Position numbers and translations under genes: made by a program. The notes under the pieces were generated by a model, which was not told where the DNA came from, searched no databases, and saw nothing but the letters and a program-made list of their open reading frames with translations. 21,314 nt of DNA from IMG/VR virus record IMGVR_UViG_3300007754_000069, positions 1-21,314 of that record. One strand, 5' to 3'. This stretch comes from a virus. The first letter of the stretch is position 1, and each line of letters opens with the position of its first letter. Of the stretch, positions 2,764 through 19,931 are shown piece after piece.

Positions 2764-5700
2764 ATGGCATTAACATCACCAGGAGTAGAAGTTTCAGTAA
2801 TAAATGAAAGTTTCTATGTACCATCAGATGCGGGTACAACACCACTTTTTATAGTAGCATCAGGACAAGATAAAGCACCAGGATCAGGATCAGGCACGGC
2901 GGATGGAACAACAACTGCCAATGCCAACACTGCTTATCTAATTTCATCTCAAAGAGAATTAACAGAAACCTTTGGCGATCCAAAATTTTATACAGACTCT
3001 TCATCTAATCCATTACATGGATATGAATTAAATGAATGGGGACTACAAGCGGCATATTCTTTCTTAGGACTTGCCAACAGAGCATACGTATTACGAGCAA
3101 ATGTAAACTTAACAGATTTAATCGGAAGTGCAACATCACCAACTGCAAACCCATCAGATGGAACATATTGGTTTGACCTTGCAACTTCTAGTTTTGGACT
3201 ATTTGAATGGTCACAAACAAATCAAAAATTTACAGCAAAAACACCAATTTTAATTACATCAGTATCTGACCTAGTTGAAAACTCTAGCACAGGTGCACCT
3301 AAAACTTCAGTAGGTTCACAAGGTGATTATGCTATAAACACAACACACGTTTCAAACAAAATTTATTATAAAAATGCCTCAAATACTTGGGTTCATCTAG
3401 GATCAAATGCATGGCATAATTCACATCCAGTAGTTTCAGTTGCATCAGGAACAACTGTTACAGGTGGACAAACAATGTCAATTAACGGTATTACTGTAAC
3501 ACCTGGTGGAACAGCATTATCCGATGTTGCAACAGCTATCAACACTGCTAATGCAGGTGGAGTTACTGCAAGTGTAAACGGCACAACAGGTAACTTAGAA
3601 ATATTCCACAATGGTGGAGCATTTGGTGATTCAACTGCAGGTTTCAATACAATTAGATTTGAAGAAGGAAATGGAGTATTAGCGGCTTTAGGAATTACAG
3701 CGGCAACATACAAAGGTCCAAGATTCCAACAATCAGCACACACTAGCAGACCAACTTGGAAAACCGCAGATCAAAACAGACCTAATGGTTCTGTTTGGGC
3801 TAAAACAACATCAGCAAATAGTGGAGCAAACATGATTGCTAAACTTTACAGCACATCAAGTGGGGCTTTTGCAAGTGTAAGTGCACCATTATACGCAAAC
3901 AATCATTCAGCAATTTACAATATAGATCCAACAAACGGTGGAACAACTATTGCAGTTGGATCACTTTATACACAGTACAACATAACTGAACAAAGTGTAG
4001 ATGGACAAGCAGATAATACACCAAATGTAGGTGATTCACAATTATTTAGATATGAAGGTGGAACAACTAGTATTCAATCTAGAAATACTAATCCAAGTAC
4101 CACAGCAGGTGAAACATTTACAGTTAGAGAATCATTAAAAAACCAAGAAGCATTAGATACTGCTAAAACAGTTACTATGGTTTCTGGAGATGGTTCAACA
4201 CTAGGTGATGCAGATGACTTTATAACAGCATTTGCGGCGGCTGGTTTTACAAACTTAACAGCAACAAAAATTACAGAAGGTGAATACACGGGTGCAATTA
4301 AAATTACACACGCATTAGGTGGTGATTTTAGAATGAATAACACATCAGGTACTCCATTAGATGATGTTGGTTTTGGTACAGGTTCAGCACACGCATACGG
4401 AACTTATACTGCAAACAGTACAACTTTAATTGATAACTTATATGTTACACCAACGGGTGATTCAGAAGATTCAACTGTAGGTAATGAAGTAATGGCTTCT
4501 AATTGGAAGAGATTATCTTACACAGCATCTATAAATTCACCAAGTAATGAACCAACAGATGGTACATTATGGTATGACACAAACATTGATTCAGCAGATA
4601 TCATGACACATAACGGAACGACTTGGAAAGGATATGCAACTGTATATACATTAACTGATCCAAATGGTCCTCAATTTTCAGCAACAGCACCAACTACACA
4701 ATCAGATGGTACTGGTCTTGTTGATAATGACTTATGGATTGATACAAGCGATTTAGAAAATTATCCAAAACTTTACAAATATAACACTTCAGCAACATTA
4801 AGTTCAACTAATACATCTAATAATGTAGCAGTTACAACAACTGGTGCGGCGTGGGTACTAGTAGACAAAGCAGATCAAACAACAGAAGATGGTATTGTTT
4901 TTGCAGATGCTAGATGGCAAACAAGTACAGAAAAAAATGCAAATAATAGTACACAGGCGGGAACAGCATCTTCAATTAAAAATTTATTAAGTGATAATTT
5001 CTTAGATCCAGATGCTCCAAATCCAGCTTTATATCCACAAGGTATAATGTTATGGAATACAAGACGTTCTGGTTACAATGTTAAGGAATACAAAAACAGC
5101 TATATAACAACTACAAAATATCCAAGTTCAGGATCAAATGGATTAGGTAACATTAGATACAACAACGAATCAGTTGCAGGTTACTTTCCTGATAGATGGA
5201 TTACAAAATCAACTAACAAACCTGATGGCTCTGGATGTTTTGGAAGAAAAGCACAAAGACAAGTTGTTATAAAACAATTAAAATCTGAAATAGATACTAA
5301 CCAAGCAATAAGAGAAGATCAAAGAGGATTTAACGTAATTGCTTGTCCTGGTTATCCAGAAGCGATACAAAATATGATCAACTTAAACATTGATCGAAAC
5401 TATACAGCATTTGTAATTGGTGATTCTCCAATGAGATTAGAAGGTACAGCAACAGCAATTCAAGATTGGGCAAATAATACTGCAGGAGCTACTGATAACG
5501 GTGAAGACGGATTAATAAGTGCAAGTGATTACTTGGGTGTATTTTATCCATCAGGATATAGTACAGACAATTCAGGTAACAAAATTGTTGTCCCATCATC
5601 ACATATGATGATTAGAACATTAGCGAACAACGATAATCTTTCATATCCATGGTTTGCACCAGCAGGTACAAGACGTGGTGTAGTAGACAATGCAACAGCA

Positions 5701-6189
5701 GTTGGATATATTGACACAAGTTCAGGTGAATTTAAAACAATATCTGTTACAGAGTCAATAAGAGATTCGATGCATACAGTCAAAGTTAATCCAATTACTT
5801 TCTTCTCAGGAGCAGGAATTGTTAACTTTGGTAACTTAACAAAAACATCAGCAAGTTCGGCATTAGATAGAATCAATGTTTCTAGATTAGCAGTGTATCT
5901 AAGAAGTCAATTAGACGCAATTGCTAAACCATTTATTTTTGAACCAAATGATGAATTAACTAGAAACGAAATTAAAGGTGCAATCGAATCATTCTGTTTA
6001 GAACTAGTTGGACAAAGAGCATTATATGACTTCTTAGTAGTTTGTGATGAAACAAATAACACAGCAACAAGAATAGACAGAAACGAATTGTATGTTGATA
6101 TAGCAATTGAACCAGTTAAATCAGTTGAATTTATTTACATACCTTTAAGAATCAAAAACACAGGAGAAATAGCAAAATTAGGGAACTAA
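2764..6189 (+). CDS. 18: Contractile tail sheath protein gp18-like, with large insertion
   Basis: At 1141 aa this is far larger than T4 gp18 (659 aa). The N-terminus (MALTSPGVEVSVINESFY) and the C-terminal 390 or so residues (from about 745, including GFNVIACPGYP near 855, then YPWFAPAGTRRG and ITFFSGAGIVNFGNLT) are the classical sheath core that stacks around the tail tube and contracts. Between about 120 and 740 lies a Ser/Thr/Asn/Gly-rich insertion. It holds several divergent units of the type PxDGTxWxD (near 130, 340, 597 and 655), and two modules resembling flagellin hook-IN repeats (about 235-310 with SINGITVTPGG, and about 465-535 with STLGDADDFITAF). The insertion probably decorates the outer sheath surface. 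AAGGAG lies 10 nt before the start, and the tail tube gene follows after 30 nt. Confidence 0.93.
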   Translation: MALTSPGVEVSVINESFYVPSDAGTTPLFIVASGQDKAPGSGSGTADGTTTANANTAYLISSQRELTETFGDPKFYTDSSSNPLHGYELNEWGLQAAYSFLGLANRAYVLRANVNLTDLIGSATSPTANPSDGTYWFDLATSSFGLFEWSQTNQKFTAKTPILITSVSDLVENSSTGAPKTSVGSQGDYAINTTHVSNKIYYKNASNTWVHLGSNAWHNSHPVVSVASGTTVTGGQTMSINGITVTPGGTALSDVATAINTANAGGVTASVNGTTGNLEIFHNGGAFGDSTAGFNTIRFEEGNGVLAALGITAATYKGPRFQQSAHTSRPTWKTADQNRPNGSVWAKTTSANSGANMIAKLYSTSSGAFASVSAPLYANNHSAIYNIDPTNGGTTIAVGSLYTQYNITEQSVDGQADNTPNVGDSQLFRYEGGTTSIQSRNTNPSTTAGETFTVRESLKNQEALDTAKTVTMVSGDGSTLGDADDFITAFAAAGFTNLTATKITEGEYTGAIKITHALGGDFRMNNTSGTPLDDVGFGTGSAHAYGTYTANSTTLIDNLYVTPTGDSEDSTVGNEVMASNWKRLSYTASINSPSNEPTDGTLWYDTNIDSADIMTHNGTTWKGYATVYTLTDPNGPQFSATAPTTQSDGTGLVDNDLWIDTSDLENYPKLYKYNTSATLSSTNTSNNVAVTTTGAAWVLVDKADQTTEDGIVFADARWQTSTEKNANNSTQAGTASSIKNLLSDNFLDPDAPNPALYPQGIMLWNTRRSGYNVKEYKNSYITTTKYPSSGSNGLGNIRYNNESVAGYFPDRWITKSTNKPDGSGCFGRKAQRQVVIKQLKSEIDTNQAIREDQRGFNVIACPGYPEAIQNMINLNIDRNYTAFVIGDSPMRLEGTATAIQDWANNTAGATDNGEDGLISASDYLGVFYPSGYSTDNSGNKIVVPSSHMMIRTLANNDNLSYPWFAPAGTRRGVVDNATAVGYIDTSSGEFKTISVTESIRDSMHTVKVNPITFFSGAGIVNFGNLTKTSASSALDRINVSRLAVYLRSQLDAIAKPFIFEPNDELTRNEIKGAIESFCLELVGQRALYDFLVVCDETNNTATRIDRNELYVDIAIEPVKSVEFIYIPLRIKNTGEIAKLGN

Positions 6190-6219: not shown

Positions 6220-6846
6220 ATGGCAATATCAACACTTTCAAAATTTACAGTACCTTTAGCAAACGATCAAAGTTCAGCATCACAAGGCTTATTGATGCCA
6301 AAACTACAATATCGTTTTAGATGTATCCTAGAAAATTTTGGAGTATCAACACCAAGATCAGAAATTACAAAACAAGTAATGGATGTTACAAGACCAAACT
6401 TAACTTTTGATAACGTAACATTAGATGTTTACAACTCAAGAGTTTATATGGCAGGTAAACACGTTTGGGATCCAATTACAATTACAATAAGAGATGACGT
6501 TAATAATTCAGTTACTAAACTTGTTGGCGAACAAATTCAAAAACAATTTGATTTCTTTGAACAATCAAGTGCGGCATCTGGTATTGATTACAAATTTACA
6601 ACTAGAATTGAAATGCTTGACGGTGGAGGTGGATCATCTACACCAAACGTATTAGAAACATTTGAATTATATGGTGCGTATGTTGAAAACGTAAACTATA
6701 ATACACTAGCATATGCAACTTCTGATCCAGCAACAATTACAATGTCTATAAGATACGACAACTGTATACAAACACCACAAGGTACAGGAATTGGTACAGC
6801 AGTATCAAGAACAATCGGTACACTAGCAACAGGTGGTGGACAATAA
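6220..6846 (+). CDS. 19: Tail tube protein gp19-like
   Basis: This 208-aa protein belongs to the T4 gp19 tail-tube family (T4: 163 aa) and would stack as hexamers to form the tube through which DNA passes. The order LQYRFRCILENFG, a DVTRPNLTFDNV strand pair, HVWDPITITIRDDV and YDNCIQT fits the gp19 layout of paired beta-hairpins. It directly follows the sheath gene, as in T4. A clear AGGAG site precedes it and a strong intrinsic terminator follows 27 nt after the stop, suggesting high, bounded expression. The C-terminal tail is Gly/Thr-rich. Confidence 0.93.
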   Translation: MAISTLSKFTVPLANDQSSASQGLLMPKLQYRFRCILENFGVSTPRSEITKQVMDVTRPNLTFDNVTLDVYNSRVYMAGKHVWDPITITIRDDVNNSVTKLVGEQIQKQFDFFEQSSAASGIDYKFTTRIEMLDGGGGSSTPNVLETFELYGAYVENVNYNTLAYATSDPATITMSIRYDNCIQTPQGTGIGTAVSRTIGTLATGGGQ

Positions 6847-6917: not shown

Positions 6918-8300
6918 ATGCCAAGTATTAATAGTTTTCTTAAAGGATTTCAAGACGGCCTTCCAGGAATGAAGGATTTCCGTCATGCTTCACGATTATA
7001 TATTGACGATCATTTTAAACTTGCACCAAAACAAAAATTTCTCTTTCATGTAGTATTAACACTTAATGACGTTGTAACTCAAAGAAAATTTACTCCTAAT
7101 GAATTAATAGAATTGAATATGCTAGTAAAAAGCTGTGAACTTCCTCGTTACAATATGAACATAGAGGAAAAAACTCAATATAATAAAAAAATGTATACAG
7201 CAACACGTATCGCATATGATCCTATAAACATTACATTTCATGATGATCATGCTGATACTGTAAATGCTTTTTGGAAAAAATATTATGAATATAATGTTGC
7301 AGATTCAGTACATCTTAATGAAGAACTTGCAGAAAAATATGCTAAAGATGATTATTATACAACAAATAGAAAAACTACAAAGTGGGGTTTAGATACTCCT
7401 AAACAAAGTAAACTTCCATTTATAAAAAATATTGAAATTTTTGTATTACACAAACAAAGATTTACATCATTTAGATTGATTAATCCTGTTATTGGTTCAT
7501 TTAATCATGACAATTTAGACCAAGCAGATGGAACTGGTATTATGCAAAATACAATGCAAGTTTTATATGAAACTGTAAGATACAAAGCAGGAGTGGTTGG
7601 AAAATCGGCAATAACAGGATGGGCTACATTACACTATGATAATGAGCCTTCACCTTTAAGTGTATTAGGTAAAGGTACAAATTCTCTTTTTGGTCCTGGG
7701 GGTGTTGTGGATGGCATTGGTTCTGTAATAGGTATGGCTAGAGAAGGAAATATTTTAGGTGCAATTATTGGTGCGTCAAACACATATAATAATGCTAAAA
7801 AAATGAAAAAATCAGCGGTCAAAGAAGAATTAAAAGGAATTGTTAAAGAAGGTGTTTTAGAAGTTGGCAAACAAGCAGGTACAATTACAAATCCTGTTGG
7901 TTCTTTTGCAGTTGGCGCCGTGGCGGCAACAGCACTAACTCTTGCAACTGCAAAAGGTACAGTCGATAATAAAAATCGACAAAATACAACAGTAATATCG
8001 GCTCCACAATTAGATACTGTAAATTTTCTTACACCAGATGAATCTTATACTCTTATAACAACAAACACAACCGTAAGAGATGCAATCGCGGCAGGTATAT
8101 ATTATAAAGACATTGGTTCTCGAAAAGGTTTAACAGTAGCAGAAAGTGACATAGAATATTCAGGCTCTCTTGATACAACAAAAACAGTATATAGAGCTAA
8201 AGCAAATACAGATATTCGTAAACTTGTAACAGAAGGATATATAAAAATTAATAGAGATACACAAAACGTATCTATTATAACTGAAAAGGCAAACTTATAA
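6918..8300 (+). CDS. gp19-related virion protein (tail tube / baseplate tube type)
   Basis: A 460-aa protein. The first roughly 240 residues look like an enlarged tail-tube domain: DDHFKLAPKQKFLFHVVLTL, then VKSCELPRY, then YDPINITFHDD and KQRFTSFRLINPVIGSF match the beta-strand order of gp19-type proteins. It probably sits in the tail tube or at its baseplate/terminator end; I recall similar proteins annotated only as virion structural proteins in marine T4-like phages. A Gly-rich segment follows (about 250-290), then a lysine-rich helix (about 293-320) and a strongly hydrophobic stretch at about 327-348 (VGSFAVGAVAATALTLATA) that could insert in a membrane. The C-terminal 100 residues are not recognised. 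It is the first gene of a coupled operon: its stop overlaps the next start as TAATG. Confidence 0.7.
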   Translation: MPSINSFLKGFQDGLPGMKDFRHASRLYIDDHFKLAPKQKFLFHVVLTLNDVVTQRKFTPNELIELNMLVKSCELPRYNMNIEEKTQYNKKMYTATRIAYDPINITFHDDHADTVNAFWKKYYEYNVADSVHLNEELAEKYAKDDYYTTNRKTTKWGLDTPKQSKLPFIKNIEIFVLHKQRFTSFRLINPVIGSFNHDNLDQADGTGIMQNTMQVLYETVRYKAGVVGKSAITGWATLHYDNEPSPLSVLGKGTNSLFGPGGVVDGIGSVIGMAREGNILGAIIGASNTYNNAKKMKKSAVKEELKGIVKEGVLEVGKQAGTITNPVGSFAVGAVAATALTLATAKGTVDNKNRQNTTVISAPQLDTVNFLTPDESYTLITTNTTVRDAIAAGIYYKDIGSRKGLTVAESDIEYSGSLDTTKTVYRAKANTDIRKLVTEGYIKINRDTQNVSIITEKANL

Positions 8301-8677
8301 TGGCAAATTCTTATACAAACCTACCTCCTAAAGATAAAAATCAGTTAGATAAAACAATTGAAAAATTAACTACATCAAATTATCAAGAAGAATTTCAATT
8401 TAACGTTGGTGAATATGACGCGGCAATTGCCTTTTTTGTTAAAAGAGGATTTTCAAGAAGTGCGGCCGAAACAACTGCTTATATAATTTTACAACAAGCA
8501 AAAATAGATTCGGTAAGTCCTCAACAAATTTTAGATCAACTTACAGTCTCCTCTCCAGCTCAACTTTCTGAATTAATAACAATTATATTAAATGCCAATA
8601 GATATAAATCAAGTAGATTAGGAGTAAGGCAAACTCGTACAACGAAAGATACTGTGTCTAGAAACATTCTAGACTAA
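8300..8677 (+). CDS. Probable small virion protein, function unknown
   Basis: A 125-aa protein with no known catalytic motif, signal or membrane segment. The middle (GEYDAAIAFFVKRGFSRSAA, then TAYIILQQAKIDSVSPQQIL) is predicted helical, and it ends LNANRYKSSRLGV through VSRNILD. I recall small marine T4-like phage structural proteins with a similar LNxNRYxxSxLG element and RNI-type terminus, but cannot verify this. Both junctions overlap by one base (TAATG at 8298-8302 and again at 8675-8679), so its translation is coupled to the upstream tail gene and to gp4. Operon position favours a structural or assembly role. Confidence 0.7.
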   Translation: MANSYTNLPPKDKNQLDKTIEKLTTSNYQEEFQFNVGEYDAAIAFFVKRGFSRSAAETTAYIILQQAKIDSVSPQQILDQLTVSSPAQLSELITIILNANRYKSSRLGVRQTRTTKDTVSRNILD

Positions 8678-9117
8678 TGATACCAAGATTTGCTAAAGGA
8701 AAATTTTCATTAAAAAATCCAGAAAAATATGTTGGACTAAAAACGCCAACTTATAGAAGTAGTTGGGAACACGGATTTATGAGATTATGTGATGAACATC
8801 CTAACGTATATAAATGGGCTAGTGAATCAATAAAAATACCTTATAGGCACCCATTAACAGGCAAGTATACAATCTATGTACCGGATTTTTTCATTGTTTA
8901 CATGGACAAAGAAGGGCGTAAACACGCCGAAATGGTTGAAGTTAAGCCATTGTCCCAGACTTCTCTAGAATCTGCTGGTAAAAGTATGGGCAAAAAGAAA
9001 CAAGTTATAATTAATCGTGCTAAATGGGAGGCCGCTTCTGCCTATGCTCGACAAAATAAAATGATATTTAGAGTAGTATCAGAAGACCAATTATTCCATC
9101 AAGGTACACGTAAATAA
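8677..9117 (+). CDS. 4: Head completion protein gp4-like (PD-(D/E)XK nuclease fold)
   Basis: This 146-aa protein resembles T4 gp4 (also called gp50; 150 aa), which acts on the packaged head before tail joining and has a nuclease-like fold. The opening (KGKFSLKNPEKYVG, then YRSSWEHGFMRLCDEHPNV) matches the family. A full PD-(D/E)XK set is visible: E31 in SSWE, P69-D70, and E88-V-K90. It may therefore trim or protect DNA ends at the portal. Its start overlaps the stop of the preceding gene (TAATG). The next gene, a probable small terminase, follows after 5 nt, so head completion and packaging genes are clustered. Confidence 0.85.
   Translation: MIPRFAKGKFSLKNPEKYVGLKTPTYRSSWEHGFMRLCDEHPNVYKWASESIKIPYRHPLTGKYTIYVPDFFIVYMDKEGRKHAEMVEVKPLSQTSLESAGKSMGKKKQVIINRAKWEAASAYARQNKMIFRVVSEDQLFHQGTRK
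9109..9116 (+). promoter_or_regulatory. Possible late-type box CGTAAATA overlapping the gp4 stop
   Basis: CGTAAATA includes the last codons of gp4 and ends 6 nt before the ATG at 9123. The spacing matches the other late genes, but the sequence is also constrained by coding, so it is weaker evidence than the intergenic boxes. Confidence 0.35.
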
Positions 9118-9682: not shown

Positions 9683-10282
9683 ATGAGCACGTTTACAAAA
9701 TATCTAACAGAATCAGTTAAGACCTATGAATATAAAATCAAAATAGCGGGTGATATTGAAAAAGGCTTCGCTAATCGTTTGGAAACTGCTTGTCAAAAAT
9801 TTGAAATACAAAAATTATCAGCAGGAAAGAAAACTCCAATACAATCGCTACCTTTAGACTTTCCAACAATAAAAAATGAATCTGTTACAATTTTCGATCT
9901 TCAAACTTCTTATCCAGTTGCAGTAAATGAATTAAGAGAATATATTGCTGATTATATGAGAATTTCTCCAGCTTGTGTAGTTGTAAGAAAACCAGGAGAA
10001 CCATCAGAAGAATATCAAGAAACAATTGCAAATGCAACTAAATCAGAATACAAAAATAAACTTCATGACATAGAATATAAAGACGCACCTAAAGTAAATG
10101 CAGAAGATTTTCATTCTACGAAAGCAAACATGAGTTTGTTAAAAGAATTATTAAAAGACAGAGATCTTAATAAGGAAGAAACTCCAAAAGAAAAAGAAAA
10201 TATTACAACTAAAGAAGACTCACCAGCAGATTCTCCATTTACAAAAACAACAAATCCACATCCGGATCCAAAGAGAAAATAA
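9683..10282 (+). CDS. Conserved phage protein of unknown function
   Basis: A 199-aa protein in two parts. The N-terminal 110 residues (TESVKTYEYKIKIAGDIEK, then TPIQSLPLDFPTIKNESVTI, then LREYIADYMRISPACVVVR) read like a compact alpha/beta domain, with strands alternating with helices as in ferredoxin-like folds. The remaining 90 residues are charged, Lys/Glu/Pro-rich and probably disordered, ending HPDPKRK. I recall proteins with the same TYEYKIKIAGD opening in marine T4-like phages but know of no assigned function. It begins a four-gene run (this gene, Cys-rich peptide, acidic protein, cold-shock protein) between the two terminase genes, suggesting a late role. Confidence 0.75.
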   Translation: MSTFTKYLTESVKTYEYKIKIAGDIEKGFANRLETACQKFEIQKLSAGKKTPIQSLPLDFPTIKNESVTIFDLQTSYPVAVNELREYIADYMRISPACVVVRKPGEPSEEYQETIANATKSEYKNKLHDIEYKDAPKVNAEDFHSTKANMSLLKELLKDRDLNKEETPKEKENITTKEDSPADSPFTKTTNPHPDPKRK

Positions 10283-10284
10283 TT

Positions 10285-10353
10285 ATGCCTTGTAATAATC
10301 CAAATTGTCAGTGTGAAAATTGTACTTGTGAAAATTGTACTTGCAGAGAATAA
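10285..10353 (+). CDS. 22-aa cysteine-rich metallothionein-like peptide
   Basis: A very short frame, ATG at 10285 to TAA at 10351-10353, encodes 22 residues of which seven are cysteine (positions 3, 8, 10, 13, 15, 18, 20). Most are in CxC and CxxC spacing, with the motif CENCT occurring twice in tandem. That density and spacing resemble metallothioneins, which bind Zn or Cu/Cd through thiolate clusters. The start lies 2 nt after the stop of the upstream gene and the next gene starts 3 nt after its stop, so it fills the gap exactly as a translated gene would. A weak AAGAGA lies upstream. The tandem repeat is exact at DNA level (two 15-nt copies at 10312-10341), suggesting recent duplication. 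Seven thiols is few for a full metal cluster; it may act as a dimer or with a partner. Confidence 0.65.
   Translation: MPCNNPNCQCENCTCENCTCRE
10312..10341 (+). repeat. Two exact 15-nt tandem copies inside the Cys-rich peptide
   Basis: TGTGAAAATTGTACT occurs twice back to back in frame, each copy coding C-E-N-C-T. Confidence 0.9.
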
Positions 10354-10356
10354 ATT

Positions 10357-11850
10357 ATGGAAATGGTTGACGTTTTACAAAAACTAAAAGAAATTACTAA
10401 CAAATCTCCAGAAGTTGCAAAAGCAATTAAAAGTGTAGAATCAACAACTAATCCAAAAACCGAAGTTGCACCTCCAGGAAGAGAAAAACAAGTAAAAGCA
10501 TTAAAAGGAAAAGTAGACAATCCTTATGCAGTTGCTTGGTCATCTTATAATAAATCTAAAGGCAAAAAAGAATCAATAAAAGAAGGCGGAATGTCAGACG
10601 TACATATTGGTGCACAAGAAAAAGTTGGTGAATATGTTGATCAAGACGGCAATCTTTCGGCACCTAAACAAGATGTATTACAATCATTAGAACAACAAAG
10701 AGCATCAGCTCCTTTTCCAGAATCATATGAAATTGAAACTGCAATAAAAATGGTACAAGATGATTTTGATGACAACGGTCAAGCAAAAGCAGAATATGAA
10801 CCTGATCCAGAAGACAATATTCCACACGATGTAGATACACAAATGAATATGGACGCACCAGCAGAAGAACAACCAATAAAAGAAGCACCAAATCCTAAAA
10901 GAGAAGCTATACAAACTCTTGAAGCATTAAGAGATATGGTTATGGAATTACCTATATCCGATGATGCTAAAACTTCGGCCCATACAGCATTAGATCAAGT
11001 GTCAGACGATATCATGATGGACACAGCTACTGATGAAGAAGCAACTGCAGAAGAACCAAAAATTGAAGAAGATACTCTTAATATAAATGGAATGACAACT
11101 GAAGAAGATGTTATTAGCATGATTCAAGATACTATAAGTGCTGGAAAAGGTGACGATGCAAAAGATTACCTAGAACAGTTTAAACAATATCTATTTGTAA
11201 AATCAGGTGGACGAGCGGAGTCAAAAGAACTAAATACAGAAACAATGAAAAAAGAAGATAAAAAACCCCTTAAAGAAGCAATTACAATGTCTGCAGACAC
11301 ACCTCAAGAAGCAGGTATGTTAATGCAAATTTTAAAACTTGCAGGTGTACAACAAGTAACACCTGATATGATTGGTGCAGAAGAACCAACAGCAGATGTA
11401 CCAACTAATGATGCCGATCACGATCATAACAACGACGGCGAACAAGATCACGCACCACAAGATTGTAATGTTTGCTCTGGTGACGATGCAATTGGCTCAC
11501 AAGGAATGGGTAATATGAGAGATATAATCTCTAAAAATGATAATGATGAACAAGCAGAAGAAACTTGGGATAATGCACCAGATGAAAAAGTTGACGACCT
11601 TGACACATTAGTGAACGTTCATTCAGGTGGCTTAAACAAACAAAAACAACAAGTAAGAAAAGAATATCCAGGTGACAATCCACTTGCCGCCGAAGATAAA
11701 ATTAGCGAAGAAGATTTAGCCAATAGTTTAAGAACACAATACGAAGGCTTTAAAAAATCTTACCAAGAAGCAACAAAAGTTGCTGAAACAAAAGCAGAAC
11801 CAAAAGAAGAAGAAGAAGTAAAGAAAGAAGCTGTTGCTGACAAAAAATAA
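10357..11850 (+). CDS. Acidic low-complexity protein, possible prohead/virion component
   Basis: This 497-aa protein is dominated by Glu, Asp, Ala, Lys and Gln, with long segments likely disordered. Recognisable islands are VDNPYAVAWSSYNKSKG near 65, a helical EAPNPKREAIQTLEALRDMV near 175, a helix ending MLMQILKLAGV at about 321-331 followed by TPDMIG, and a short Asp/His-rich stretch (DADHDHNNDGEQDH) followed by C-N-V-C. The last 60 residues are a charged helix. I recall similar acidic proteins with a LAGVxxVTPDM element in marine T4-like phages, usually annotated as structural or hypothetical. A scaffold or head-core role is possible but unproven. The His/Asp cluster plus CxxC could bind metal, which is notable beside the Cys-rich peptide. 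Confidence 0.75.
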   Translation: MEMVDVLQKLKEITNKSPEVAKAIKSVESTTNPKTEVAPPGREKQVKALKGKVDNPYAVAWSSYNKSKGKKESIKEGGMSDVHIGAQEKVGEYVDQDGNLSAPKQDVLQSLEQQRASAPFPESYEIETAIKMVQDDFDDNGQAKAEYEPDPEDNIPHDVDTQMNMDAPAEEQPIKEAPNPKREAIQTLEALRDMVMELPISDDAKTSAHTALDQVSDDIMMDTATDEEATAEEPKIEEDTLNINGMTTEEDVISMIQDTISAGKGDDAKDYLEQFKQYLFVKSGGRAESKELNTETMKKEDKKPLKEAITMSADTPQEAGMLMQILKLAGVQQVTPDMIGAEEPTADVPTNDADHDHNNDGEQDHAPQDCNVCSGDDAIGSQGMGNMRDIISKNDNDEQAEETWDNAPDEKVDDLDTLVNVHSGGLNKQKQQVRKEYPGDNPLAAEDKISEEDLANSLRTQYEGFKKSYQEATKVAETKAEPKEEEEVKKEAVADKK

Positions 11851-11862
11851 AAACAATCAAAT

Positions 11863-12081
11863 ATGAGCATAAACGGAAAAGTAAAATGGTATAATGGAAC
11901 CAAAGGATTTGGTTTTATTGCCAGAGAAGACAACGAAAAAGATGTATTTGTTCACAGAACGGCTCTTCAAGCCGCAGGTATACCCAACCTGAGAGAAGGT
12001 GAACAATTAACATTTGATGTAGATATAGCGGCAAAAGGACCTTGCGCCGTTAATTTACAAAAACCTGACATAAACAGTTAG
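11863..12081 (+). CDS. Cold-shock domain protein (CspA family)
   Basis: This 72-aa protein is a complete cold-shock domain. It opens MSINGKVKWYNGTKGFGFI, with RNP1 KGFGFI at 14-19 and RNP2 DVFVH at 27-31, both aromatic-rich nucleic-acid-binding strands, followed by EGEQLTFDVD and a closing VNL strand. Such proteins bind single-stranded RNA or DNA and melt RNA structure. The length equals that of bacterial CspA. It lies 12 nt after the acidic protein gene and 35 nt before gp17, so it is probably made with late packaging genes. No Shine-Dalgarno is apparent. Origin by capture of a host csp gene is likely. Confidence 0.93.
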   Translation: MSINGKVKWYNGTKGFGFIAREDNEKDVFVHRTALQAAGIPNLREGEQLTFDVDIAAKGPCAVNLQKPDINS

Positions 12082-12116: not shown

Positions 12117-13712
12117 ATGGCGTATGTATCGTTAGACAGTGAACAGGTAAAACGTGCCCATAAAAAGCACAAATATACCAAAGAACAAGTCTTACAACTC
12201 GAACAGTGTATGAACACAAAGACTGGACCGTTGTATTTCATGGAAACATTTATGAGAATACAACATCCAACTAAAGGTGAAATGGCTTTTCATCCTTATT
12301 CTTTTCAAAAAAGATTAATTGAATCATATAACAATTATCGATTTTCTGTATCAATGCTACCACGACAAACAGGTAAAACAACCTGTGCGGCAGGATATAT
12401 TATTTGGTATGCTATGTTCCATCCAGATTCATCTATATTAATTGCGGCACACAAATACGCAGGTGCGTCTGACATTATGTCACGTGTAAGATTTTCATAC
12501 GAAATGTTACCTGAATGGATTAAAGCTGGAGTAACGCAATACAATAGAAATTCTATAGAATTTGACAATGGTTCAAAAATAATAGCAACTACTACAACTG
12601 TATATAGTGGGCGGGGTATGTCTTTAACAATGATATATTGTGATGAGTTTGCATTCCTCCAACCACCAGATAAAGCAAAAGAATTTTGGACGTCACTATC
12701 TCCTACCTTGTCAACAGGAGGTAAGTGTATGATTACATCAACTCCAAACTCTGATGAAGATCAATTTGCGTTAATTTGGAAAGAAGCTAATAAAAAATTC
12801 GATGAATACGGCAATGATAAAATTGTAGGAACTAATGGCTTCTATGCCATGAAAGCTCACTGGTCAGAACATCCTGAACGAGATGATAAGTGGGCAGAAA
12901 CTGAAAAAGCAAGAATAGGTGAGGAAAGATTTAGACGAGAACACGAATGTGAGTTTATAATCTTTGATGAAACATTAATTAACTCTACAACATTAGCAGA
13001 AATGGAAGGTACTCTTCCTATAGAAAGTACAGGACAGGTACGTTGGTATAAAAGACCCACACCAGGACATACATATATGGTATCATTAGATCCAAGCATG
13101 GGTACAGGTGGCGACTATGCGGCTATACAAGTATTTGAATTGCCAACATTTGAGCAAGTTGCAGAATGGCGTCATAATGAAACACCAATGAATCAGCAAA
13201 TTAGAATATTACAAGGAATTACCAAACATATACATGACACTATAATAGAGAAAGATGCAGGTGCTACTCCACAAATATTTTATTCAATGGAAAATAATGC
13301 AATTGGTGAGGCGGCACTTTTAAGAGTTATGGATATTGGCGAAGAAAATATTATAGGTATGTTCTTATCAGAACCTATTAGAAGAGGACATAGACGAAAA
13401 TTTAGAAGAGGATTTAATACTACTGCAAAACATAAAATTGATGCTTGTACAAAATTTAAAGAACTTGTAGAAAATAACAAACTACAAATTAACTCTAAAT
13501 TGCTTATAACAGAATTAAAGGATTTTGTTGCAATAGGTATGAGTTATAAAGCTAAACCAGGACAACACGACGATTTAGTTAGTGCTTGTTTATTAATGAC
13601 ACGTATGATAAAAGTACTTGCAGATTTTGATCCTAAAATATTCGAAAAATGGACTGATAGAACATCTGAATGGACTGCACCAATGCCAATCTTCGCAAAC
13701 CTATACGGATAA
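12117..13712 (+). CDS. 17: Terminase large subunit gp17 (packaging ATPase and nuclease)
   Basis: This 531-aa protein has the full gp17 architecture (T4: 610 aa). The ATPase domain has a Walker A RQTGKTT at 83-89 and a Walker B with D176-E177 in MIYCDEFAFL, followed by a SPTLSTGGK-type coupling segment and a TSTPNSDEDQ motif. The RNase-H-like nuclease domain has D325 in VSLDPSMGTGGDY, a second acidic region around YSMENNAIGEAALL, and HDD at 484-486 before a helical end. It pumps DNA into the prohead at the portal and cuts the concatemer. It overlaps no neighbour; a late-type box ends 7 nt before the start. The probable small subunit gp16 is 2.4 kb upstream, not adjacent as in T4. Confidence 0.97.
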   Translation: MAYVSLDSEQVKRAHKKHKYTKEQVLQLEQCMNTKTGPLYFMETFMRIQHPTKGEMAFHPYSFQKRLIESYNNYRFSVSMLPRQTGKTTCAAGYIIWYAMFHPDSSILIAAHKYAGASDIMSRVRFSYEMLPEWIKAGVTQYNRNSIEFDNGSKIIATTTTVYSGRGMSLTMIYCDEFAFLQPPDKAKEFWTSLSPTLSTGGKCMITSTPNSDEDQFALIWKEANKKFDEYGNDKIVGTNGFYAMKAHWSEHPERDDKWAETEKARIGEERFRREHECEFIIFDETLINSTTLAEMEGTLPIESTGQVRWYKRPTPGHTYMVSLDPSMGTGGDYAAIQVFELPTFEQVAEWRHNETPMNQQIRILQGITKHIHDTIIEKDAGATPQIFYSMENNAIGEAALLRVMDIGEENIIGMFLSEPIRRGHRRKFRRGFNTTAKHKIDACTKFKELVENNKLQINSKLLITELKDFVAIGMSYKAKPGQHDDLVSACLLMTRMIKVLADFDPKIFEKWTDRTSEWTAPMPIFANLYG

Positions 13713-15820: not shown

Positions 15821-17341
15821 ATGAACTATCACGCAGTATTTGTTTTTAATCCATTTTCAAAAATTGATGCTATGCCCATGGCGCCTGCATTATTAAAAGC
15901 TATATGTGATGCAAATGGCCTCAAAACTACAACATTAGATTACAATATAGAATTACAAATCGCATATTTTAATAAAAAAATTGCTGTTGATGTGGAACAA
16001 TATCTAATGCATTTTTCTAAAATGTCTATTGAAGCATATGACTGGTATCATCAATGGGTGGAAGAAAAAGCAAAAGAATTAATAAATTTAAATGCTAATT
16101 GGATAGGATTTTCATTATTAAGTTATCAAAGTTTAACATTTACACACGATATTTGTTATTATATAAAAAAAAATAAACCCGAACAAAAAATTATACTTGG
16201 TGGACAAGGTATTAGTAAAGATGATAATACTAACGGTTCTTACAGAAATAATAAAAAAATGCCAGATGTACTACTAGAAACTGGACTATGTGATACTATT
16301 ATAATAAACGAAAGTGAAAGTTTGTTAATTGATATTCTACTTAATAATAAAAAAGGAAAATTTAATACTAAAGTACAATTAACAGCCGAAGACCTAAACC
16401 AATTACCTACTCCATCATATATTGATTATAAATTAGATCTTTATAAAAACGCTTCAAATGATTTTCTCTCAGCTGAACAAAAATCAGTTTTGTATAAACA
16501 AGGTGTTGCGGCTACTATAACTGGTTCTAAAGGATGTGTGAGAAGATGTACATTTTGTGATGTATTTTCATTTGAACCGAAATTTGTTTTTAAAGACGGT
16601 AATAAAGTTGCTGAGGAAATGATTGAAATATATGAAAAACAAGGAATAACAAATTTTATGTTATCTGATTCATTAATAAACGGATCAATGAAAGCATTTA
16701 GACAAATGAATACAGCACTTGCAAAAAAACTACCACGAACAATAAGTTATTATGGTGAATATATAGCACGACCGGAAGGACAAACTACTAACGAGGATTA
16801 TCATCTTATGGCCGAAGCAGGTTGCAAACACGTTATTGTTGGTGTTGAATCTGGCAGTGAAGCTGTACGAAATCATATGAGGAAAAAATTTACAAACGAT
16901 GATTTACATTTAATGATTGAAAGTCTTTATAACGTTGGTATCACTCAAGAATGGAATATAATGACTGGCTATATTACTGAAACAAGAAAAGATTTTGAAG
17001 ATACACTTGCGTTAGTAAAAAAATATAAAGATATTCCATTTCCAAAAATGATCGTTAATCCAGTTGGGGTATTACATTTATTACCAGGATCTCCATTATA
17101 TGATACTCATGCTAGACAACTAGAAATTACCTGGGAAGATATAAAACCCGGAGTAGGATTAATATATGATTATTGGTATAGTAAACAAAATCCAACTAAC
17201 ACGTTTGTTAATAGGATAACTTGGTGGACTGAATTAATCGAATATTGTCATGATCACGGATACATGACAGAATATAGATATAATACAAAGAAGGCAACTG
17301 CTAATCGATTAATCCAGGCCTGGAACGAAAATAAAAAATAA
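15821..17341 (+). CDS. Radical SAM enzyme with B12-binding-like N-terminal domain
   Basis: A 506-aa protein. The catalytic core has the radical-SAM cluster motif CxxxCxxC at C239, C243 and C246 (GSKGCVRRCTFCDV), which holds a 4Fe-4S cluster that cleaves S-adenosylmethionine to a 5'-deoxyadenosyl radical. Further core elements are DSLINGS, the strand around YYGEYIARPEG and GVESGSE, a typical SAM-contacting region. The first 190 residues (AVFVFNPFSKIDAMPMAPAL, LDYNIE, WIGFSLLSYQ, KIILGGQG) follow the Rossmann-like pattern of the B12-binding domain, but no DxHxxG cobalt-ligand motif is visible, so cobalamin use is doubtful. Substrate is unknown. The 134-aa gene starts 1 nt after its stop and is probably co-translated. 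Its composition is more Asn/Lys/Ile-rich than the structural genes, consistent with acquisition. Confidence 0.92.
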   Translation: MNYHAVFVFNPFSKIDAMPMAPALLKAICDANGLKTTTLDYNIELQIAYFNKKIAVDVEQYLMHFSKMSIEAYDWYHQWVEEKAKELINLNANWIGFSLLSYQSLTFTHDICYYIKKNKPEQKIILGGQGISKDDNTNGSYRNNKKMPDVLLETGLCDTIIINESESLLIDILLNNKKGKFNTKVQLTAEDLNQLPTPSYIDYKLDLYKNASNDFLSAEQKSVLYKQGVAATITGSKGCVRRCTFCDVFSFEPKFVFKDGNKVAEEMIEIYEKQGITNFMLSDSLINGSMKAFRQMNTALAKKLPRTISYYGEYIARPEGQTTNEDYHLMAEAGCKHVIVGVESGSEAVRNHMRKKFTNDDLHLMIESLYNVGITQEWNIMTGYITETRKDFEDTLALVKKYKDIPFPKMIVNPVGVLHLLPGSPLYDTHARQLEITWEDIKPGVGLIYDYWYSKQNPTNTFVNRITWWTELIEYCHDHGYMTEYRYNTKKATANRLIQAWNENKK

Positions 17342-17832: not shown

Positions 17833-18801
17833 ATGGCTACATTGGCTGAAATAAGAGCGAAGTTAAAATCCCAAGAAGTGAATCGCTCCACTTCTTCAAC
17901 AGGTGGCGACAATGCCATCTATCCACACTGGAACATACAGGAAGGACACGAAGCAGTTATTAGATTCTTACCCGATAAGGATACTACTAACACTTTTTTC
18001 TGGACTGAGAGAAATATGATCAAACTACCTTTTGCAGGTATTAAAGGTCAAAGTGATTCTCGACCAATCCAGGTGCAAGTACCGTGTATGGAAATGTACG
18101 GAAAAACTTGTCCGGTTCTAACAGAAGTTAGACCTTGGTTTAAAGACAAATCAATGGAGGACATGGGCAGAAAGTATTGGAAGAAAAAAAGTTATATATT
18201 CCAAGGCTTTGTTGTACAAAATCCATTAAACGAAGATGCAACTCCAGAAAACCCAATTAGAAGATTTATAATTGGACCACAAATCTTTAATATAATTAGA
18301 TCGGCATTACTTGATCCAGAAATGGAAGAGTTACCAACTGATTATGTAAAAGGTGTAGACTTTAGAGTTAACAAAACTTCTAAAGGTGGTTATGCTGATT
18401 ACTCAACATCTAAATGGTCAAGAAGAGAAAGAGCTCTAGACGAAACGGAAAGAGCATCTATTGATAAGTTTGGTTTACATAACTTATCAGACTATAGACC
18501 AAAAGAACCATCTGAAGCAGAAGTAAAAATAATTAAAGAATTATTTGAAAAATCTGTTGAGGGTGAGTCTTATGATCTTGAGAAGTATGGACAATACTTT
18601 AGACCTGCAGGTGTAGGTAGAGTATCTATACCAACAGCAAGTAGACCTGCTCCAGTTGAGAAGACTGCTAACCCGGTAAATGCAGAAGTAAAAGTTGCAG
18701 AAACGGTAACAGCGTCGGCTCCAACAGCACAACCAACAGGTGATAGTGCCAAACGAGCAGAAGACATCTTGAAATTAATCAGATCAAGACAGGCAAAATA
18801 A
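17833..18801 (+). CDS. 32: Single-stranded DNA-binding protein gp32-like
   Basis: This 322-aa protein (T4 gp32: 301 aa) coats ssDNA during replication, recombination and repair. The basic N-terminal arm (LAEIRAKLKSQEV) matches the region for cooperative binding between monomers. The core runs from WNIQEGHEAVIRFLPDKD through FFWTERNMIKLPF, MEMYGKTCPV, RKYWKKKSYIFQGFVVQNPL and FGLHNLSDYRP. In T4 a zinc is held by one His and three Cys; here only two cysteines, in the segment VPCMEMYGKTCPV, are obvious, so zinc binding may be altered. The tail is Ala/Pro/Thr-rich and ends basic (LIRSRQAK) rather than acidic as in T4. uvsX follows after a 68-nt gap with a hairpin. Confidence 0.92.
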   Translation: MATLAEIRAKLKSQEVNRSTSSTGGDNAIYPHWNIQEGHEAVIRFLPDKDTTNTFFWTERNMIKLPFAGIKGQSDSRPIQVQVPCMEMYGKTCPVLTEVRPWFKDKSMEDMGRKYWKKKSYIFQGFVVQNPLNEDATPENPIRRFIIGPQIFNIIRSALLDPEMEELPTDYVKGVDFRVNKTSKGGYADYSTSKWSRRERALDETERASIDKFGLHNLSDYRPKEPSEAEVKIIKELFEKSVEGESYDLEKYGQYFRPAGVGRVSIPTASRPAPVEKTANPVNAEVKVAETVTASAPTAQPTGDSAKRAEDILKLIRSRQAK

Positions 18802-18858: not shown

Positions 18859-18869
18859 AGAAAGTGATT

Positions 18870-19931
18870 ATGGTTAAACCGTTTGACGTAACAAAATTTA
18901 GAAAAAGCATAACAAAGTCCATACAAGGACTTGGCATAGGATTTAATGATCCAACGGATTGGATAAGCACAGGAAACTATGCGTTAAATTATTTAATAAG
19001 TGGAGACTTCAACAAAGGTGTTCCGCTAGGCAAAGTAACAGTACTAGCAGGTGAGTCTGGCTCAGGTAAATCATTTATAGCATCAGGCAATTTAGTGCGT
19101 AATGCACAAAAACAAGGCATCTATGTAATACTAATCGATTCTGAAAATGCATTAGACCAATCATGGCTTGAAGCCCTTGGTGTTGATACTAGCGAAGATA
19201 AACTTTTAAGATTAAGTTTATCAATGGTAGATGACGTAGCAAGAACTGTTTCAGACTTTATGAAAGGTTATAAAGACGAACACGCCGACGATAAAGAAAA
19301 TGCACCTAAAGTATTAATTGTAATTGATAGTTTGGGTATGTTATTAACACCAACCGATGTTGATCAGTTTGAAAAAGGTGAAATGAAAGGTGACTTAGGT
19401 AGAAAACCCAAAGCCTTAACAGCATTTGTAAGAAACTGTGTTAATATGTTTGGTAGTTGGAACGTAGGACTTATAGCAACTAATCACACTTATGCATCAC
19501 AAGATATGTTTAATCCTGATGATAAAATATCTGGTGGACAAGGATTTATATATGCATCAAGTATTGTGATTGCAATGAAGAAATTAAAACTTAAAGAAGA
19601 CGAAAAAGGTAATAAAATTACTGACGTTAGGGGTATTAGAGCGGCTTGTAAAGTAATGAAAACACGTTTTTCAAAACCGTTTGAATCAGTACAAGTTAAG
19701 ATACCGTATGACACGGGTATGGATCCATTTTCGGGATTAGTTGAATTATTTGAGAAAAAAGGGGTACTAGTACAAACAGGAAACAGGTTAAAATACGTAG
19801 ATTCTAAAGGAAAAGAACATATTGAGTTCCGAAAATCCTGGGTTGGAGATAAATTATTGATGTTGATGGACAACTATGATAAATTATCAACAAACCTTAA
19901 GGAAGAAATTGATGATAGACATGACGCATGA
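18870..19931 (+). CDS. uvsX: UvsX, RecA-like recombinase
   Basis: A 353-aa RecA/UvsX protein (T4 UvsX: about 390 aa) that forms filaments on ssDNA with gp32 and UvsY and carries out strand exchange in recombination-dependent replication. Walker A is GESGSGKS at 61-68, followed by VILIDSENALDQ and a Walker B region in VLIVIDSLGML; DNA-binding loop regions are near KPKALTAFVRN and ISGGQGFIYASS. I chose the ATG at 18870 over a GTG at 18864 because the GTG lies at or before the predicted transcription start. The next gene begins inside its last codons, with an AAGGAAG site. Confidence 0.95.
   Translation: MVKPFDVTKFRKSITKSIQGLGIGFNDPTDWISTGNYALNYLISGDFNKGVPLGKVTVLAGESGSGKSFIASGNLVRNAQKQGIYVILIDSENALDQSWLEALGVDTSEDKLLRLSLSMVDDVARTVSDFMKGYKDEHADDKENAPKVLIVIDSLGMLLTPTDVDQFEKGEMKGDLGRKPKALTAFVRNCVNMFGSWNVGLIATNHTYASQDMFNPDDKISGGQGFIYASSIVIAMKKLKLKEDEKGNKITDVRGIRAACKVMKTRFSKPFESVQVKIPYDTGMDPFSGLVELFEKKGVLVQTGNRLKYVDSKGKEHIEFRKSWVGDKLLMLMDNYDKLSTNLKEEIDDRHDA

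Follow-up and report, generated by a model that had tools for sequence, protein, structure and literature searches.

What does a reading frame of only 22 codons, seven of which specify cysteine, do for a phage that carries it in the seam between two much longer genes, and is it a gene at all? The frame begins with ATG, occupies 10285..10353 (+) of the window, by which we mean the whole 21,314-base virus record analyzed here, and encodes the peptide MPCNNPNCQCENCTCENCTCRE; the same frame recurs in 10 other contigs. It starts 2 nt after a 199-aa gene and ends 3 nt before a 497-aa gene, its cysteines stand at positions 3, 8, 10, 13, 15, 18 and 20 (7 of 22 residues), and its product is acidic, one third cysteine, and free of both aromatic residues (F/W/Y) and histidine. 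An original prediction had described this frame with its seven cysteines and its 2-nt and 3-nt gaps, all of which were exact on recheck, as well as an exact 15-nt in-frame duplication, which we find to be tandem (10312..10341, +): the unit TGTGAAAATTGTACT is present twice (10312-10326 and 10327-10341), each copy encoding C-E-N-C-T. The same prediction had spoken of CxC/CxxC spacing throughout, a description that fits from Cys8 onward, where CxC and CxxC alternate, but not the first spacing, which is C-x4-C. At the 3′ end of the gene, AGAGA (10345..10349, +; GGAGA in lineage C, introduced below) can be read as a possible Shine-Dalgarno sequence of the downstream gene; the three clearest Shine-Dalgarno sequences in the window lie ahead of 2764, 6220 and 17833.

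The window is identified by its sequence as a fragment of an uncultivated T4-like phage, a myovirus. Comparison with PHROGs assigns a head-tail adaptor (687-1454), a tail sheath (2764-6189), two tail-tube-like proteins (6220-6846 and 6918-8300), head closure (8677-9117), a cold-shock protein (11863-12081), TerL (12117-13712), a single-strand DNA-binding protein (17833-18801) and a UvsX-like recombinase (18864-19931). The upstream neighbor of the peptide gene (9683..10282, +; 199 aa) matches the virion structural protein family phrog_14802 and has a homolog in the jumbo phage PA5oct (32% identity over 74% of the protein, E 7e-9), while the downstream neighbor (10357..11850, +; 497 aa) is the counterpart of PA5oct gp281 by position alone. 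The PA5oct record has the same gene order as the window and annotates both the 199-aa homolog and gp281 as structural proteins on the basis of ESI-MS/MS; there the two counterpart genes lie 29 nt apart with no annotated gene between them. The best TerL matches among 50,697 phage records, at 52.8% identity, likewise come from PA5oct-like jumbo phages. None of these records is a close relative of the window, and blastn over both neighboring genes came back empty; the near-identical relatives are IMG/VR contigs. A marine origin is conjectural. Directly after the structural genes of the window, 15821-17341 encodes a radical SAM protein (PF04055) with a B12-binding match below cut-off; of the NCBIfam models, that of a PhpK-like P-methyltransferase comes nearest, at a score far short of its cut-off. 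A ferredoxin-like protein with 4Fe-4S motifs is encoded on a 121,819-bp phage contig (L548:9095-9430, which corresponds to bases 89095-89430).

First, the frame has to be told apart from a chance run of cysteine codons. Of ATG frames between 15 and 60 aa long whose cysteine content is 30% or more, the window contains this one alone and the 121,819-bp contig only the near-identical copy, and 20 first-order Markov resamplings of that contig produced no ATG frame of such size and cysteine content. When GTG and TTG starts are permitted, the contig holds three further frames of that size and content, and thus cysteine content alone is no proof of a gene. Cysteine spacing alone was also dropped as evidence: the real seven-cysteine spacing and a permuted-spacing control are both abundant among the matches listed, internal stops interrupt 83 of the 184 matches to the real spacing and 84 of the 166 to the control across the 194 loci of these scans, and most of the short frames among the matches listed are of low complexity. 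The frame is nonetheless confirmed as a genuine gene, because it is conserved at its site and because its few changes are mostly silent. A first search with the 199-aa protein gave 60 loci, of which 56 are readable at the junction (two run off before the stop codon and two end 10-12 nt after it); five carry the peptide and 51 a gap of 2-4 nt. A survey of the best 80 of at least 515 relatives of this protein, together with the window, covered 81 places that were not chosen by cysteine content: the 22-aa peptide is present at 11, a different peptide with nine cysteines at one, a gap of 1-4 nt at 68 (including L321 and L345, whose contigs end soon past the junction), and one runs off. The 11 carriers, six of them ending in RE and five in GE, comprise three lineages, namely A (the window and four contigs), B (L272) and C (five contigs, all GE). 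The original prediction had looked to the corresponding gaps of relatives for cysteine-rich frames, which these 11 places supply, and had counted relatives without the frame against the gene; such relatives prevail, but their sites are empty rather than occupied by broken frames, and the gene is therefore best regarded as an optional accessory and not as an artefact. In the records of two cassette-less relatives (196,581 and 86,865 bases, perhaps incomplete), the CxC motif pattern was not found elsewhere either.

The manner in which the copies differ points the same way. Between the window and L006, a contig of lineage B, the peptide gene has accumulated four silent and no replacement codon changes in 22 codons, as compared to 33 silent and 32 replacement changes in 198 codons of the neighboring gene. 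Over the three lineages the peptide gene has undergone five changes, four silent and one replacement, and the probability of four or more silent changes among five without selection is 0.003-0.023 for transition weights of 1-8; five changes in three lineages thus give a moderate signal suggestive of selection. A residue-column table was excluded as evidence, as the expression that selects its rows itself demands the cysteine positions. Could the frame nevertheless be a non-functional repeat expansion, that is, a chance frame inserted between two genes and carried along? Such an origin would agree with the exact tandem repeat, the absence from most relatives (best 80 of at least 515, plus the window) and the few other short cysteine-rich GTG/TTG frames in the contig. 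Yet four of the five changes are silent, the 20 resamplings contain no such ATG frame, a different cysteine-rich peptide occupies the same site in another phage, and the motif recurs in a wide set whose reversed control is empty, so that we hold this origin to be very improbable.

Second, the gene behaves as a unit that comes and goes at one position. Alignment with cassette-less relatives delimits an accessory cassette (10285..10356, +; ATG...TAA-ATT), 72 nt long in lineage A, that fits exactly from the stop codon of the upstream gene to the start codon of the downstream gene. A tree of the neighboring protein (57 distinct sequences), whose bootstrap is not fully settled and which does not distinguish gain from loss, requires at least three changes of presence, forced by supported branches, with the nine-cysteine phage L318 scored as a carrier. 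In this tree, lineages A and B pair with the empty relative L273, C with L274, and L318 with L317. The 199-aa neighbor gene diverges by 12-22% across the three carrier lineages, and lineage C is 92.6% identical in neighbor-gene DNA to its empty relative L274. Between lineages A and C, the DNA of the peptide gene is 97.1% identical and that of the neighboring gene 78.3%. As the peptide DNA of A and C is far more alike than the DNA beside it, transfer of the cassette between phage lineages would be the best explanation, a single gain followed by losses being a possible alternative. The occupant of the site may also differ: L318 carries at the same junction (3100-3186) a 28-aa peptide, MSCNECKCNCTECNCAYCLCDDCGETRD, whose nine cysteine positions are identical to those of two other viral peptides (L078 and L137), and its close relative L317 has no peptide there.

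Third, what would such a peptide do? Metallothioneins as a class are short, about one third cysteine, rich in CxC and CxxC, and devoid of aromatic residues, a composition that the phage peptide shares (7 of 22 residues cysteine, both CxC and CxxC, and none of F, W, Y or H). It is shorter than the bacterial metallothionein types, and metal binding is in its case a prediction. The bacterial SmtA/BmtA-type metallothioneins (PF02069) are prokaryotic and cysteine-rich like the phage peptide, which by contrast has no histidine, is less than half their length, and does not match the PF02069 profile at E up to 10. In size and cysteine number the peptide resembles the fungal copper thioneins of the Neurospora crassa type (about 25 aa, seven cysteines), but the spacing differs, and no homology is claimed. 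The peptide matched nothing in Pfam at E up to 10 (a search in which the speed filters of HMMER may drop very short queries), in NCBIfam at E up to 10, in PHROGs at E up to 0.001, or in the PDB. Searches of the 50,697 phage records with the 22-aa peptide and a 41-aa relative gave zero matches with the BLAST low-complexity filter on, so that absence is not implied, and blastn with 200 bases of the contig L066 gave none.

Given a short acidic peptide, one third cysteine, with regular CxC/CxxC spacing and without aromatics or histidine, we consider it probable that the 69-bp frame works as an accessory micro-gene and that its product is a micro-metallothionein, a thiolate buffer for Cu(I) or Zn encoded on an exchangeable cassette. 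The 22-aa chain would probably fold only around metal, its seven thiolates holding a small Cu(I) or Zn(II) cluster inside the infected cell. It may be co-produced with the virion proteins, presumably late, and could then act during virion assembly as a buffer or donor of soft metal or as a quencher of thiol-reactive stress. Related phage lineages would have acquired or shed the cassette at a single inter-cistronic position, and by motif the peptide would belong to a wider modular set of (C-E-N-C-x)n micro-proteins in phages and bacteria. The original prediction is thereby partly supported: its account of a micro-gene that is metallothionein-like in composition and easy to miss has held up, and the gene proves to be conserved and flanked by genes whose counterparts encode virion proteins. 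Its suggestion that the peptide supplies zinc to zinc proteins has fared worse where it can be tied to a neighbor. Donation of metal to the 497-aa protein was tried as a candidate and rejected: in a comparison of 64 rows (three without the next gene and several incomplete), a CxxC is found in eight, including L274, which lacks the peptide, whereas L277, which has the peptide, has no CxxC. The motif does not follow the peptide, and a link to a zinc site in that protein is unsupported.

If the metal-thiolate reading is correct, phages would carry some of the smallest metal-thiolate proteins known, and metal buffering would be a selectable trait of infection. The peptide thiols might alternatively scavenge oxidants or electrophiles, with metal merely incidental. 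The same sequence facts are compatible with such a redox sink, a phage contig encodes both a ferredoxin and a radical SAM protein, and one viral copy of the motif (L079) has a ferredoxin gene two genes downstream. Regular CxC/CxxC spacing, however, is typical of metal-thiolate clusters and would not be needed for a plain pool of thiols, and we judge the redox sink unlikely.

Fourth, the peptide has company among viruses. A strict pattern finds 12 viral stretches, 10 of which are the peptide at this junction. The pattern C-E-N-C-x-C-x-N-C-x-C finds 88 viral stretches, as opposed to none for the exactly reversed residue pattern, and 85 of the 88 are stand-alone frames of 18-55 aa; the three exceptions lie at the end of a 201-aa frame (L119), are cut by the contig end (L136), or lack a start codon (L146). 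The window peptide, itself a stand-alone short frame with this motif, fits such a set of (C-E-N-C-x)n phage micro-proteins. In L119, which is a phage sequence, the protein that terminates in the motif has a DUF3008 N-terminus, and an internal ATG could alternatively start the motif frame alone. Three of the 88 viral stretches (L110, L119 and L140) encode peptides with the full 12-cysteine spacing of the flavobacterial type described below.

Copies elsewhere precede a variety of genes: a head maturation protease gene by about 1.3 kb (L078), a tail sheath gene by 1.2 kb (L144), an endolysin gene by 0.8 kb (L083), and the ferredoxin gene already mentioned by two genes (L079). A sheath-like label for a 690-aa protein near the L090 copy and a holin-like label for the neighbors of L074 were discarded, neither having a PHROG match. 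This distribution bears on the possibility that the peptide is itself a virion component, incorporated into the particle alongside the products of the neighboring genes, where metal or disulfide bonds would make it a structural staple. The PA5oct counterparts of both neighbors have been detected by mass spectrometry, according to the record annotation, and the copies ahead of the protease and sheath genes suit a structural role; the copies ahead of the endolysin and ferredoxin genes do not, and the peptide is absent from 68 of 81 places (best 80 of at least 515 relatives, plus the window). A virion role is quite unlikely in our estimate.

Fifth, the motif extends to bacteria, where its setting is different. 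A scan of one genome for each of 84,980 species returned 115 stretches with C-E-N-C-x-C-x-N-C-x-C, and a 12-cysteine spacing, C.C.C..C.{4,5}C..C.C..C.C..C.C, is present in 62 of the 80 listed and 32 of the 35 others. The organisms of the 80 listed stretches belong mainly to flavobacterial genera, such as Tenacibaculum, Winogradskyella, Polaribacter and Kordia. A member of one gene cluster follows closely in 62 of these 80 loci, as the first gene in 61 of them, at a median distance of 81 nt; the two members scanned fall in the sigma-70 family, nearest to SigZ at scores below curated cut-offs, and 59 of 63 members have at least three cysteines in their last 40 residues. As the search pattern itself imposes five cysteines, silent and replacement counts of the motif-found set were excluded in favor of a count anchored on the sigma factor. 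For this, the SigZ protein of Tenacibaculum discolor (L162; Flavobacteriaceae), a query drawn from a locus found by the cysteine motif, was compared with 149 genomes of the family at E up to 1e-30. Of 29 matching genomes, the query genome included, 28 encode, no more than 400 nt upstream, a micro-ORF 15-70 aa long that contains five or more cysteines; of 650 other stretches on the same strand of these loci, 10 have one. The micro-ORFs that precede SigZ-like ECF sigma genes in Flavobacteriaceae are mostly 33-41 aa long (L551 and L554-L581; also L150-L264).

The flavobacterial SigZ-linked micro-protein of 33-34 aa shares its C-terminal C-E-N-C-x-C-x-N-C-x-C with the phage peptide but has 12 cysteines and a fixed N-terminal half, where the phage peptide has seven cysteines and a C-N-N-P-N-C start. 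The phage peptide lacks the 12-cysteine spacing and is followed not by a SigZ-like gene but by the 497-aa virion-protein counterpart; a representative flavobacterial peptide, for its part, matched no NCBIfam model. The most phage-like bacterial peptide observed is MNTIEVNGPNCGNPNCTCENCTCENCTCGQQ, from a Parafilimonas MAG (L170), which is identical at 16 of 20 core residues and shares all seven cysteine positions and N-P-N with the phage peptide, while being chromosomal, nine residues longer and confined to a single locus in one MAG. No other match came from the 394 genomes of its family or the 396 of its order that were scanned. Its surroundings include a Cation_efflux gene, an HMBD gene, and a gene for a TonB-dependent receptor with an HMA match below the Pfam cut-off. 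Phage and bacterial peptides may be of common descent; their likeness is one of motif only, and short cysteine repeats could arise independently.

Tentatively, then, and with rather less confidence than we attach to the phage gene, we raise the possibility of an unrecognized class of modular micro-thioneins, built of C-E-N-C-x units and common to phages and bacteria. The phage cassettes would sit among structural and lysis genes, with seven- and nine-cysteine types in the same slot, and the counterpart in Flavobacteriaceae would form a regulatory pair with a cysteine-tailed, SigZ-like ECF sigma factor. Were such a class real, the handling of metals and thiols would be a recurrent stake of infection, and the near-constant pairing in Flavobacteriaceae (28 of 29) would offer a cultivable system in which to study function.

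Regulation of another kind is also conceivable. Cysteine-rich leader peptides occur in mycobacteria, and the phage frame might likewise sense the supply of cysteinyl-tRNA and tune translation of the 497-aa gene, the peptide itself being inert. A frame rich in cysteine codons does stand directly ahead of a large gene, at a distance of 3 nt, and the flavobacterial peptides too precede a gene. However, consecutive cysteine codons are absent, the E, N and T residues recur together with the spacing, and the module is found fused into larger proteins. Furthermore, RNA structure over 10270-10375 is not beyond chance (z +1.26, one stretch folded), and most relatives keep the downstream gene with a gap of 1-4 nt in its place (best 80 of at least 515, plus the window). 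A leader function is therefore improbable in our view, and a peptide that acts as a metal-thiolate buffer is the reading that we retain.

Among the matches listed from the open-licence literature, no phage-encoded metallothionein of this kind was found. A word search for "metallothionein" finds no instance in PMC11364881 or PMC11323111, and PMC9723704, on a flavobacterial transcriptome, contains neither "metallothionein" nor "SigZ". If a class of this sort exists, annotation would have missed it because the genes are very short; both the phage peptide gene and the flavobacterial micro-gene are of the kind that length-limited annotation can overlook. Small genes of phages are reportedly the subject of work by Fremin et al. 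in 2022.

Finally, the module is not confined to micro-proteins. Bacterial fusions join it to GrpE and to a ferredoxin, one phage has it at the end of a DUF3008 protein, and it thus behaves as a protein domain. The GrpE proteins (PF01025) carry an N-terminal extension of repeated C-E-N-C-x units (L169:5225-5854 and L209:1607-2206) and come from MAGs titled Tenericutes and Erysipelotrichaceae, and the ferredoxin-like protein (L183:1788-2045), from a MAG titled Bacilli, ends in the tail C-Q-C-E-N-C-D-C-E-N-C-D-C.
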